From Acinetobacter pragensis (lineage in GTDB: Bacteria > Pseudomonadota > Gammaproteobacteria > Pseudomonadales > Moraxellaceae): DNA of 64,000 nt. The DNA lies in the NCBI RefSeq assembly GCF_001605895.1, contig NZ_LUAW01000017.1:1-64000 (forward strand). The letters are read 5' to 3'. Below, in pieces: positions 7,381 to 27,170 of this stretch. A program made the position numbers and the translations under genes. The notes below the pieces were generated by a model. The model was not told the DNA's origin and did not search any database. It saw only the letters and a program-made list of their open reading frames with translations. Position 1 is the first letter of the stretch, and each line of letters opens with the position of its first letter.

Positions 7381-7408
7381 ATTTTGAATGCAGCAGAGGT
7401 CAAAACGA

Positions 7409-8368
7409 ATGGCAGCATTTCTAAACTTCAATCAATGGGTTCAAAAGACTTTCGCCTTTTGGGTGGTGCTGTTTTCAGGCCTTGCGCTCTGGATGCCGGA
7501 CGTGTTTGTTTGGCTGAAAGCGTATATTCCGTGGGTGCTCGGCATCATCATGTTCGGGATGGGCATGACCATGACTCCAGCGGATTTTAAAGGCGTCATG
7601 CGCAGTCCGAAGGCCGTGCTGATTGGTGTGGCGGCCCAGTTTCTGGTCATGCCGGGATTGGCCTATGTATTATGCAAAGCCTTTTCCTTACCGGCAGAAA
7701 TAGCGGTGGGGGTGATTCTGGTGGGCTGCTGCCCAGGCGGAACAGCATCAAATGTCATTACTTATATGGCCAAAGGCAATACTGCGCTGTCGGTGGCCTG
7801 CACTTCGGTTTCCACTCTTCTTGCACCGATTTTGACGCCTGCAATTTTTTATCTGCTGGCCAGCCAGTGGATTGAAATCAATGCGCTGTCAATGCTGGTG
7901 TCAATTTTGCAGGTTGTGCTGTTTCCGATCTTTTTAGGGCTGATTGCCCGCAGTGTATTTAAACGTCAAGCCGAATCTTATATTCAGGTCATGCCGCTGA
8001 TTTCAGTCCTGGGGATTGTGGCTATTGTCGCGGCCATTATTGCGGGCAGCAAAGCGCAGATTTTGGAATCCGGCCTGCTGATTTTAGGCGTGGTCATGCT
8101 GCATAACGGCTTGGGCTATTTACTGGGTTTTTGGGCCAGTAAACTGCTGCAGCTGCCGTATGCTGACTGCAAAGCCGTTGCAGTAGAAGTCGGCATGCAG
8201 AATTCAGGCTTGGGTGTGGCATTGGCGGCTGCGCATTTTGCGGCATCGCCTGTTACGGCGGTGCCGAGCGCTATTTTCAGCCTTTGGCATAATATTTCTG
8301 GCCCAGCTTTAGCCAGCTATTGGGCCAGCAGAGCGGAGCCTGCTGAAGAGCAATCTGAGCCTCTTTAA
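7409..8368 (+). CDS. Bile acid:sodium symporter (BASS) family transporter
   Basis: The 319-residue integral membrane protein has about nine to ten hydrophobic segments. The family hallmarks are GMGMTMTPADF near residue 53, CCPGGTASNVITYMAKGN (about 109-126) and the EVGMQNSGLGVALA segment near 267. Members move organic anions with sodium, for example bile acids, pantoate or keto-acids; the substrate here cannot be assigned. I use ATG 7409 because AGAGG sits nine bases before it; an in-frame ATG at 7388 lacks a site and overlaps the terminator tail of pncA. Confidence 0.88.
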   Translation: MAAFLNFNQWVQKTFAFWVVLFSGLALWMPDVFVWLKAYIPWVLGIIMFGMGMTMTPADFKGVMRSPKAVLIGVAAQFLVMPGLAYVLCKAFSLPAEIAVGVILVGCCPGGTASNVITYMAKGNTALSVACTSVSTLLAPILTPAIFYLLASQWIEINALSMLVSILQVVLFPIFLGLIARSVFKRQAESYIQVMPLISVLGIVAIVAAIIAGSKAQILESGLLILGVVMLHNGLGYLLGFWASKLLQLPYADCKAVAVEVGMQNSGLGVALAAAHFAASPVTAVPSAIFSLWHNISGPALASYWASRAEPAEEQSEPL

Positions 8369-8391
8369 TGCATCTGTTGATCATTATGTTG

Positions 8392-8416
8392 AAAAGAGCG
8401 CGCGTCGCTCTTTTTT
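8392..8416 (+). terminator. Intrinsic terminator after the BASS carrier
   Basis: The arms AAAAGAGCG (8392-8400) and CGCTCTTTT (8406-8414) form a 9-bp stem with a 5-base loop and T-run to 8416. Confidence 0.9.
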
Positions 8417-8466
8417 ATTGCGGCAGTCTCGCCGTTATTGCAATGAAAAATAACGCTTCGGGCGCG

Positions 8467-8500
8467 ATGTAACATGATTGTCATAATGTCTGCCTAACAT
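8467..8500 (+). promoter_or_regulatory. Probable PhoB box and -10 element before ppk
   Basis: Two seven-base half-sites in direct repeat, ATGTAAC (8467-8473) and TTGTCAT (8478-8484), are separated by four AT-rich bases (ATGA). That is the 11-base repeat arrangement of a Pho box (consensus half CTGTCAT). A -10-like TAACAT starts ten bases after the box (8495-8500), the spacing expected when PhoB replaces the -35. The second half-site matches 6 of 7 and the first 4 of 7. Confidence 0.6.
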
Positions 8501-8551
8501 GCCTCTCCGTAAGCTTTATAACAGACTGTTGAAAAACAGCATTGAGAGGGT

Positions 8552-10615
8552 ATGCAAAACTTTCAGCATTCATCGGAGACCTATTTCAATCGGGAATTGT
8601 CGCTGTTTGAATTTAACCGCCGTGTACTTGCACAGGCACAGGATACCCGCTTGCCGTTACTGGAACGACTGGGTTTTCTGATCATTTTTGCCCGCAACTT
8701 AGATGAATTTTTTGAAATCCGCATTGCGGGTTTAATGAAACAGCGTGATTTAAACGCCATTGCCCGTACGCCAGATGCATTGCCGACAGAAGTAGTCTTG
8801 CAGGCCTTGTCCGAAGCGGTACATGCTTCGGTTAAAGAACAGTATGAAATTTTGAATCGCGCCATATTGCCCGAACTGCTGGCCAATGGCATACAGTTCA
8901 TTCAATATCAGGATATTGAAGACAGGCATCTGGCTTGGATTGCCAAATTCTTTGCGAAAGAAGTGCAGCCGGTTCTTACCCCGATCAGTTTGGATCCATC
9001 CCATCCATTTCCGCGGCTGGTGAATAAAAGCCTGAATTTTATTGTCAGCCTTGAAGGCAAAGATGCTTTTGGCCGAGAAATCACTTTGGCGATTGTGCCT
9101 GCGCCGCGCTCCTTGCCCCGATTAATTCATTTGCCCGCTGCCGTTGCAGGATGCGCAGATGCCCAGATTTTCCTGACCGCAATTATTCAGCAGCATATCA
9201 GCGATTTATTTCCGGGCATGCGGGCGACCGGCTGTTATGCATTCCGCGTCACCCGCAATGCGGATCTCATCCTGTCCGAAGATGTGGATGATTTGGCGGT
9301 AGCGCTGAAGGATGAACTGTCATCGCGCCGTTTCGGCCGGGCAGTGCGGCTGGAAATTGAAGATGACTGTCCTGAAACGATTATTCGGTACTTGCTGAAT
9401 GAGTTTGACTTGACGGAACAGGAGCTGTACCGGACTGACGGGCCGATTAATCTGTCGCGCTTAAGCAGCAGTTTTGACCGCCCCGAGTTGAAGCACCCTC
9501 TCTTTACCCCAGTGATTCCCAAAATTTTCCGAAAACAGCAAAGTATCTTTGATATTTTAAAGACGCAGGATGTGCTGCTGCATCATCCTTTTGATTCTTT
9601 TCAGCCAGTCATCAGCCTGCTGAAAGAAGCCGCCAAAGATCCGAAAGTTTTGGCGATTAAACAGACGCTGTACCGCAGCGGGCCGGATTCAGAAATAGTG
9701 CAGGTGCTGGCGGAAGCCGCGCGCAATGGCAAAGAAGTCACGGCTGTGATTGAGTTGCGCGCGCGTTTTGATGAAGAATCCAATATCATTGTGGCGAATA
9801 TTCTGCAGGAAGCCGGCGCCGTGGTGGTGTATGGCATTGTCGGCTATAAAACCCACGCCAAAATGATTCTGATTGTGCGCCGTGAAAGCCATCAGCTGCT
9901 GCGCTACGTGCATTTAGGCACGGGCAATTACCATGCCGGCAATGCGCGGATGTATACCGATTACGGCCTCATGACCACACAGCCGGATATTTGTGAAGAT
10001 GTGCACCGCATGTTTCAGGAATTGACCGGCATGGGCAAAATGGCCAAATTGAAAGCCTTGCTGCACGCGCCATTTACTTTGCACAGTGAATTGCTGAAAT
10101 TGATTGAGCAGGAAATCGTCTTTGCTCAAGCAGGAAAAGCCGCCCGCATTATCATTAAAGTCAATGCGCTGACAGAGCCGCAGCTGATCGCAGCGCTGTA
10201 CCGCGCTTCCGAAGCCGGGGTGAAAGTGGATTTAATCATCCGCTCCATTTGCTGCCTGATTCCTCAAGTGAAAGGCATGTCAGAGCATATTCATGTACGC
10301 TCAATTGTCGGACGCTTTTTAGAACATACCCGCGTGTATTATTTTGAGCATGGCGGCGAGAAGAAATTGTATTGCGCCAGTGCGGACTGGATGGGGCGCA
10401 ATCTGTTTTCACGTGTGGAAACCTGTTTTCCGATTTTAGACAGCAGCCTGAAAAAACGGATTTTTAAAGATGGCCTAATGAATTATCTGCAGGACAATCA
10501 AAATGCATGGGAGCTGCAGTCAGACGGCCATTGGACAAAGGCAGCCTGCACTGATCCTGCTCAGGCGCATAGCGCCCAGCGGCTGCTGATTGAACAAAAA
10601 ATGCTGAAAGTCTAA
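8552..10615 (+). CDS. ppk: Polyphosphate kinase 1
   Basis: PPK1 polymerises inorganic polyphosphate from ATP. The 687-residue protein has the normal length and the four-domain layout. The two catalytic histidines fall at positions 435 (GYKTHAKM) and 592 ([10 protein letters not shown]), the same numbers as in E. coli. The N-terminal [16 protein letters not shown] segment and [10 protein letters not shown] helix are family-typical. The start at 8552 is the only reasonable one, though the GAGAGGG before it is very close to the ATG. A candidate Pho box upstream fits the known phosphate-starvation control of ppk in Acinetobacter. No ppx is adjacent. Confidence 0.97.
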
Positions 10616-10717: not shown

Positions 10718-11989
10718 TCAAGAGGCTTTGGACTGCTTGGATTTTAAAATCTCAGTCCGGAAGCTTTGCGCTAGTTCAGCGGCGCCGCTATCCATGCCAT
10801 TCACCATGAAGGCGTGGCGGGTCAGCACATTGGTTGGATTCGGCAAGCTGACCAGCTGGAAATGCTCAGAAATTTCTTTCAGCTGCGTATTCGGCACATG
10901 CACTGCGCTTTCTTTTGCAGACAGCTGCTGCACCAAACGTTCAGCCGCCTGTACAGCAGACAGCTGCATGGCTTCAACTGCGCTGGATACGGCACTGCGG
11001 GTCTGCAGCACAAAGCGCTTTTCCTCACGGTAACGCTTGTACAGCACGTCAGACAGCAGCTGGAAGACAGCGCTGATCATGGTGAGGCACTGCAGCGCAT
11101 TCGGCGTATCAGCCGAAATGCTGATGGTTGCGCCTTTGTCATTGAATTTATGGACTGTGCAGATGTCTGAATTGTTCAGCTTGTAGTGCTGTACGCATAA
11201 TTCTACAGTTTTGTTCAGGAAAATTTGACACAAATTGAAATATGGCACAGAAACGGTCGTATTGACGGTATCCAGCAATTGCTTAGGATCATAGAACTGA
11301 ATATTCAATGCCAAATCGTTGCTGTCGACAATGACCGGCTTGCTTTCTTTGGCCTTGGCTTTGGCTTGCGCATTTTGCTGCGCTTGCGCAATCGCCACGG
11401 CGGCATTGTGCTTTTCCTGTTCTAGCGCCTGCGTCAGCGTTTGAATTTCATGCTTTAAGCGCGATTCATTGTTGATGCGCGCCAGATATTCGGTGCGGCT
11501 TGGACGGGCAATGGCGCGGTAAGCCAGCCACAGCAGTCCATGAATAAACAGCGATGCTAAAATGGCCAGCCATTGGGTGCGTAAAATTTCGCCAATGCTT
11601 GGTTTGATTAAGGTGATTTCAATGGTGCCGACTTTCTTTTCATTCAGCAGCGCATCGCGGACAAAAACTTCACCTTCGCGGGTTTTGGTCAAGCCGCCCG
11701 TCGCCATCACTTGATTATCGGCATTTAAAATGCGGATAGAGGCCACGCTTGGATTGGTCGCGTAGCGGTCCGCCAGCAACGCCAGCGATACGGTATTCGC
11801 GGGTTCCATTTCAGAAATGCTGTCTGTCACCAGCTGGCTGGTCATGAGCTGGCCCTGACTGGCGCGGTTTTCATTCAGCTGGTGAGTTGTTGCCAATACC
11901 AATAAAAAGGTATGAAAAGCAAAACTTATAATCAGTAGGCTAGCAAATAGCCCTTGTCTAGGCGCATTCAACGTAAACTTCCAAGGCAA
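10718..11989 (-). CDS. Membrane protein resembling the YtjB/SMP (AhpA) family
   Basis: The 423-residue product has a first membrane segment at about 14-33, a periplasmic region of about 100 residues (INADNQVMATGG type), a second segment near 138-158, then a charged Gln/Ala-rich stretch predicted to be coiled coil (about 175-210) and a cytoplasmic C-terminal domain. This two-helix plan, and the position divergent from serB, match E. coli ytjB (smp) and its Pseudomonas counterpart. Function is poorly known. The start is a TTG at 11989, directly after an in-frame stop; no ATG precedes the first membrane helix, so a non-ATG start is required. No convincing ribosome-binding site is seen. Confidence 0.65.
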   Translation of the reverse strand: MPWKFTLNAPRQGLFASLLIISFAFHTFLLVLATTHQLNENRASQGQLMTSQLVTDSISEMEPANTVSLALLADRYATNPSVASIRILNADNQVMATGGLTKTREGEVFVRDALLNEKKVGTIEITLIKPSIGEILRTQWLAILASLFIHGLLWLAYRAIARPSRTEYLARINNESRLKHEIQTLTQALEQEKHNAAVAIAQAQQNAQAKAKAKESKPVIVDSNDLALNIQFYDPKQLLDTVNTTVSVPYFNLCQIFLNKTVELCVQHYKLNNSDICTVHKFNDKGATISISADTPNALQCLTMISAVFQLLSDVLYKRYREEKRFVLQTRSAVSSAVEAMQLSAVQAAERLVQQLSAKESAVHVPNTQLKEISEHFQLVSLPNPTNVLTRHAFMVNGMDSGAAELAQSFRTEILKSKQSKAS

Positions 11990-27067: not shown

Positions 27068-27170
27068 ATATTTTACGTGCTGTTAGCATTTATTCTTCAA
27101 TAAGATCACAAATTTTGAATGTCATATAGTGCAACTTTGTGATAAAAAATTGCAAAAATAAAATCGTAGA

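Follow-up and report, generated by a model that had tools for sequence, protein, structure and literature searches.

A candidate PhoB-activated promoter upstream of the second ppk1 paralogue of Acinetobacter pragensis

Polyphosphate accumulation is well known in Acinetobacter, and the control of its ppk by phosphate has been cited as though each cell had one such gene. Published work already covers both a phosphate-controlled ppk in the genus and the paired PPK1s of A. baumannii. The question raised by the 64,000-nucleotide stretch of A. pragensis DNA analysed here (the window) is whether the short segment preceding its ppk1 gene is a promoter of the phosphate regulon and, if so, to which of the ppk1 paralogues it belongs. 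The original prediction had placed there a Pho box with a correctly spaced -10, made up of two direct half-sites 11 bases apart and a TAACAT hexamer ten bases downstream, and this description is borne out in all its parts. The half-sites (Table 1) are direct repeats with starts 11 bp apart and TGAT between them, and the nine bases ATGTCTGCC separate the second one from the hexamer, which thus begins on the tenth base past the half-site; the same 9-nt spacing is found at pstS and is conserved in two clades of ppk genes, A1 and A2. TAACAT agrees with TATAAT at 4 of 6 positions. In class-II Pho promoters of the E. coli phoA type, the -35 zone is covered by a pair of direct 7-bp half-sites at an 11-bp distance, and a -10 follows about 9 nt downstream; the site shares this layout in both half-site spacing and -10 distance, its first half-site, TGTAACA, departing from the TGTCATA of E. 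coli.

Table 1. Features of the ppk1 promoter region and its surroundings in the window.
Feature	Position	Strand	Basis
Upstream PhoB half-site TGTAACA	8468..8474	+	Sequence reading; mean column identity 0.96 over 16 distinct A1 promoters
Downstream PhoB half-site TGTCATA	8479..8485	+	Sequence reading; 0.98 by the same measure in A1
-10 hexamer TAACAT, 9 nt past the second half-site	8495..8500	+	Sequence reading; gap of 9 kept in A1 and A2
Predicted transcription start region, 5' leader of ~45 nt	8506..8508	+	Predicted from the -10 position alone
Putative ribosome-binding-like GAGAGG	8544..8549	+	By eye
ppk1, polyphosphate kinase 1, clade A1 paralogue (PPK1A-like)	8552..10615	+	NCBIfam and tree
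Bile acid:sodium symporter/PanS-like transporter gene, upstream neighbour	7388..8368	+	Two NCBIfam matches, both under cut-off
Terminator-like hairpin, 10-bp stem, 5-nt loop, 3' of the upstream gene	8391..8415	+	Weak

The gene downstream of the site encodes 687 amino acids from an ATG at 8552 and matches NF003918 with 1068 bits (cut-off 691) and TIGR03705 with 895 bits (cut-off 466), its predicted product being a full PPK1 by full-length match above curated cut-offs. The upstream gene may end at the hairpin listed in Table 1, which folds at -11.2 kcal/mol (z -0.89, equalled by 43 of 200 shuffles) and is absent from the output of the terminator scan. The promoter scan returned no sigma-70 promoter-like site in 8300-8700, so a classic sigma-70 promoter for ppk1 was set aside; a riboswitch or other RNA in the leader was likewise discarded, since nothing in 8200-8800 matched Rfam at the gathering score. 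Between ppk1 and serB the window also holds, on the minus strand (10718-11989), a gene for a 423-aa protein, membrane-anchored as judged by eye and with no NCBIfam match at E 0.001; in A. celticus (L059) a 423-aa counterpart adjoins ppk.

The strength of the box was assessed with a main matrix made from the genus pstS boxes and three phoB-type boxes, ppk boxes being excluded. The site scores 21.1 bits, the runner-up in the window 16.1. In a Markov-1 control none of 19.66 million positions reached the score of the site and 2 came within 1 bit of it (at least 20.1), equivalent to about 0.75 chance sites per genome, so that the score alone is indecisive genome-wide. Matrices built from pstS boxes only or from phoB-type boxes only both place the site first among 127,966 window positions, and a matrix of six E. 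coli boxes ranks it only 21st among them, which tells against a naive reading from E. coli; the site therefore follows the Acinetobacter form. A composite of two half-sites, 9 nt and a -10, in which 13 or more of the 14 half-site letters had to agree and whose letter sets were picked after the pstS, phoB and ppk boxes were known, has this site as its sole match in the window and none in 300 Markov windows. On the matrix and Markov controls and the composite search together, a chance match within the window was rejected. Two weaker Pho-like composites, each with 11 of 14 letters and a -10 at gap 9, lie at 27144 and 57802 on the minus strand.

At the scale of the 3.7-Mb genome, the pattern TGTAAYWNNNNTGTCATA, wide enough to take in both pstS and phoB, has three exact matches, namely the ppk site, pstS and phoB, and at one mismatch or fewer it has 12, against 5 for the reversed control. 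The looser pattern TGTNACANNNNTGTNATA, with up to two mismatches, gave 124+136 genome matches against 164+150 for its reversed control and, showing no enrichment, was dropped as evidence. The 64 matches to the E. coli consensus at 3 mismatches (36 in the control) served solely to find candidate sites.

The closest relative of the site is the promoter of pstS. Among the 30 pstS loci read, one further pstS match without a locus being left out, 29 carry the box (L228 is the exception), and 28 of these place a -10 at gap 9. The pstS promoters resemble the window site in having a TGTAAC-type first and a TGTCATA second half-site with the -10 at gap 9; they differ from it in that many loci have more in-phase half-sites upstream and in their CAAAAT-type -10 (22 of 29), whereas the window ppk has a single pair of half-sites and TAACAT. 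Because 21 of the 29 box-bearing pstS loci have, in addition, a hexamer resembling a -10 at gap 3, and six phoB promoters have by eye no clear -10 at gap 9, the spacing rule is neither fully independent nor universal. In the A. pragensis genome the pstS match precedes a PstS-like gene (159.5 bits, cut-off 206.6) and the phoB match lies upstream of the sole gene that passes the PhoB cut-off (333.5 bits), followed by a PhoR-like gene which runs off the end of the locus and has scores under the cut-offs. The DNA-binding domain of this PhoB aligns over 102 residues with that of E. coli PhoB (1gxp), and what we take to be the recognition helix differs little between the two. Across the genus, TGTAAYANNNNTGTCATA is present in 132 of 149 genomes, with 15 matches in the reversed control. 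Its commonest form among the matches listed, TGTAATAAGCCTGTCATA, is the phoB box of this genome, and six examples of it precede the same gene start. The spacer of this phoB box is also retained in most genomes among the matches listed, variants existing, and six phoB-type loci (L180, L181, L182, L186, L187, L189) show a short inverted repeat such as AACGGTTCACCGTT at the expected place of the -10.

These data bear on the idea that some other response regulator of the OmpR family, with a similar taste for direct repeats, binds the site, so that ppk would answer a different signal. The genome does offer candidates, 19 of its 20 matches to the PhoB model lying under the cut-off; however, just one passes it, and an equal box stands before pstS and phoB, genes that are diagnostic of the phosphate regulon. 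We consider control by another regulator very improbable.

Pho-type sites were also seen at other genes. The sequence TGTAACACAATTGTCATG stands upstream of the exopolyphosphatase gene ppx (L006, G000:C11:89471-89488), where the box scores 14.0 bits and no clear -10 at gap 9 is visible by eye; boxes with 13 or 14 of 14 letters occur at 7 of 30 ppx loci, and some members of the genus may therefore place polyphosphate breakdown under Pho control. Given so few strong boxes and the lack of a clear gap-9 hexamer here, ppx was not taken as an equally clear Pho target. A gene for a PitA-like phosphate transporter (361.8 bits, cut-off 800; L126) carries TTGTCATATAATTGTCAC near its putative start (G000:C67:5267-5284), with 20.6 bits in register. 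In A. baumannii, olsB has a predicted Pho box and aminolipid formation depends on phoR (PMC11828411); this is likewise a predicted Acinetobacter Pho box, on another gene.

Conservation of the site was followed in ppk relatives drawn from the best 80 of 557 matches and a few from further searches, a set biased to near kin. A tree of 83 rows separates four clades: A1 with 19 members including the window gene, A2 with 18, A3 with 12 and B with 34. Left out of it were L082, whose protein is truncated, and L217, L218, L220, L211 and L210; L219, sharing a genome with L069, was not counted again in A2, hence the 17 promoters considered there. Most upstream windows were taken from the point where the tblastn match begins, which makes the distance to the ATG overlong in A2, A3 and B. 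A -10-like hexamer (at least 4 of 6 positions of TATAAT) lies exactly 9 nt past the best box in 19/19 A1 and 17/17 A2 promoters. The box exceeds 15 bits in all 19 of A1 and in 14 of the 17 of A2 (lowest 13.1), a level reached by 1 of 380 shuffled upstream regions for A1 and 2 of 340 for A2, and the 36 boxes of both clades are all above the 95th percentile of the shuffles. Over the 16 distinct A1 promoters mean column identity is 0.92 in the -10, next to the half-site values given in Table 1; it falls to 0.67 and 0.69 in the 4-nt and 9-nt spacers, and the flanks have 0.48 (upstream) and 0.62 (downstream). Across A1 and A2 it is 0.95-0.98 in the half-sites and 0.57-0.69 in the two spacers. At L060, the one A2 locus examined for its neighbours, bioB replaces the upstream gene of the window, so the box seems to travel with ppk.

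The two remaining clades lack the strict box. None of the 12 A3 promoters is above 15 bits; 7 lie above the 95th percentile of the shuffles, and repeats of a looser kind, followed by a -10 at gap 9, are visible. In clade B none of 34 is above 15 bits and 23 exceed that percentile; 28 of the 34 have CATACT at gap 9 as the end of their best composite, and what these promoters carry is, as we read them, a degraded repeat. Gap 9 gives the best composite score in all four clades, its lead being smallest in A3 (15.2 vs 14.3 at gap 12) and B (14.8 vs 13.7 at gap 6).

PhoB is able to repress as well as to activate. It could accordingly bind the site and repress ppk or alter its expression little, for instance by competing with another activator; yet the box covers the -35 zone and keeps a 9-nt distance to the -10, exactly as at the genus pstS, where activation is expected, and we judge repression or indifference to be likewise very improbable. 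The least probable of the three alternatives is an ordinary constitutive promoter overlain by a chance repeat, since, for all that loose Pho patterns are common in a single genome, that about 0.75 chance sites of at least 20 bits are expected per genome and that a -10 is present, no sigma-70 site was found in 8300-8700 and the half-sites and their spacing are selectively conserved before 36 genes.

We thus read 8468-8500 as a probable class-II promoter through which PhoB activates the second ppk1 paralogue, with a probability of roughly 0.88. This assignment, made from sequence comparison, is strongly supported by a box with the 9-nt spacing of pstS and by a footprint conserved in two ppk clades, and also by a putative PhoB that passes its cut-off and whose DNA-binding domain resembles that of E. 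coli, and by the promoter scan, which found no sigma-70 site. In low phosphate, PhoR would phosphorylate PhoB, a dimer of which would bind the two direct half-sites in place of the missing -35 and recruit sigma-70 RNA polymerase to the TAACAT hexamer; ppk1 would then be transcribed from around 8506-8508 when phosphate is scarce, both this start and the direction of the response being predicted.

How does the PhoB-activated promoter proposed here relate to the published phosphate control of ppk? Two PPK1s in one cell, as in this genome, have been described in A. baumannii AB5075; that paper gives PPK1A and PPK1B as about 67% identical and attributes the earlier work to PPK1B (PMC8576328). In the same study, phase variants, phosphate-starved ones included, showed no significant difference in ppk1A by qRT-PCR (PMC8576328), a comparison that says little on starvation itself; the A. 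baumannii ppk1A is probably a member of clade A3, in which the strict box is lacking. The related A. nosocomialis has its second copy in A3 and no strict box there, whereas the window copy falls in A1 and, by its placement in the tree, appears to be PPK1A-like. The other ppk1 of A. pragensis lies on contig C67 (G000:C67:22382-24394, L149) in clade B, with mtgA upstream, a different regulator-like gene downstream and a degraded Pho-like repeat followed by CATACT at gap 9. On the main matrix this copy reaches 5.4 bits and its A. baylyi counterpart in clade B 2.4, as against the 21.1 of the window site. Among 149 genus genomes, matches to the PPK1 model number one in 64, two in 67, three in 14, four in 3 and none in 1, some of them maybe fragments.

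In A. baylyi the clade-B ppk1 is flanked by mtgA, which passes the TIGR02070 cut-off, and by an OxyR-like gene (under cut-off), beyond which are esterase-like and reductase-like genes; the second ppk1 of this species is in clade A3. The ppk of Acinetobacter sp. ADP1 is reportedly induced by phosphate starvation, and its gene order, as we presume it to be, fits the mtgA-ppk-oxyR-like locus of A. baylyi. This order, together with the attribution to PPK1B in the A. baumannii study, makes clade B the most likely seat of the published control, and the Pi-inducible gene is probably the A. baylyi counterpart of the mtgA-linked copy. The window gene, in clade A1 and with other neighbours, was not found to be orthologous to the ADP1 gene, which is also a ppk1 and whose presumed clade B mostly has the direct repeat with CATACT at gap 9, the differences being in clade, locus and the weakness of the box. 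Since the A. baylyi ppk1 flanked by mtgA and the oxyR-like gene is in another clade, existing reports on Acinetobacter ppk probably concern another paralogue than the window gene. The statement of the original prediction that Pho-type control of ppk is reported for Acinetobacter is therefore correct insofar as such a report exists, and probably misdirected as to the gene, the paralogue concerned being most likely that of clade B, on C67 here.

The titles and abstract openings surveyed, with few subscription papers among them, describe no Pho box on a PPK1A-type gene and no promoter comparison of both ppk copies, and the parts seen of PMC9430702, PMC3163519 and PMC4415409 contain nothing on either. 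The site itself is solid but ordinary, with a modest twist in the paralogue that it serves. One gain is a native Acinetobacter PhoB-box matrix, which finds the window site far better than the E. coli matrix does. It is tempting to speculate, at slightly less than even odds, on a split of phosphate control by promoter strength after duplication, in which the PPK1A-like genes of A1 and A2 would hold the strong PhoB promoter and would act as starvation-dedicated polyphosphate synthases, the core PPK1B would retain a degraded box, and the second copy of A3 (A. nosocomialis, A. calcoaceticus, A. baylyi) would have been rewired. Should many species carry their strongest Pho promoter on the paralogue that has been studied less, the starvation-inducible enzyme may have escaped earlier experiments that followed the expression or the knockout of one ppk.
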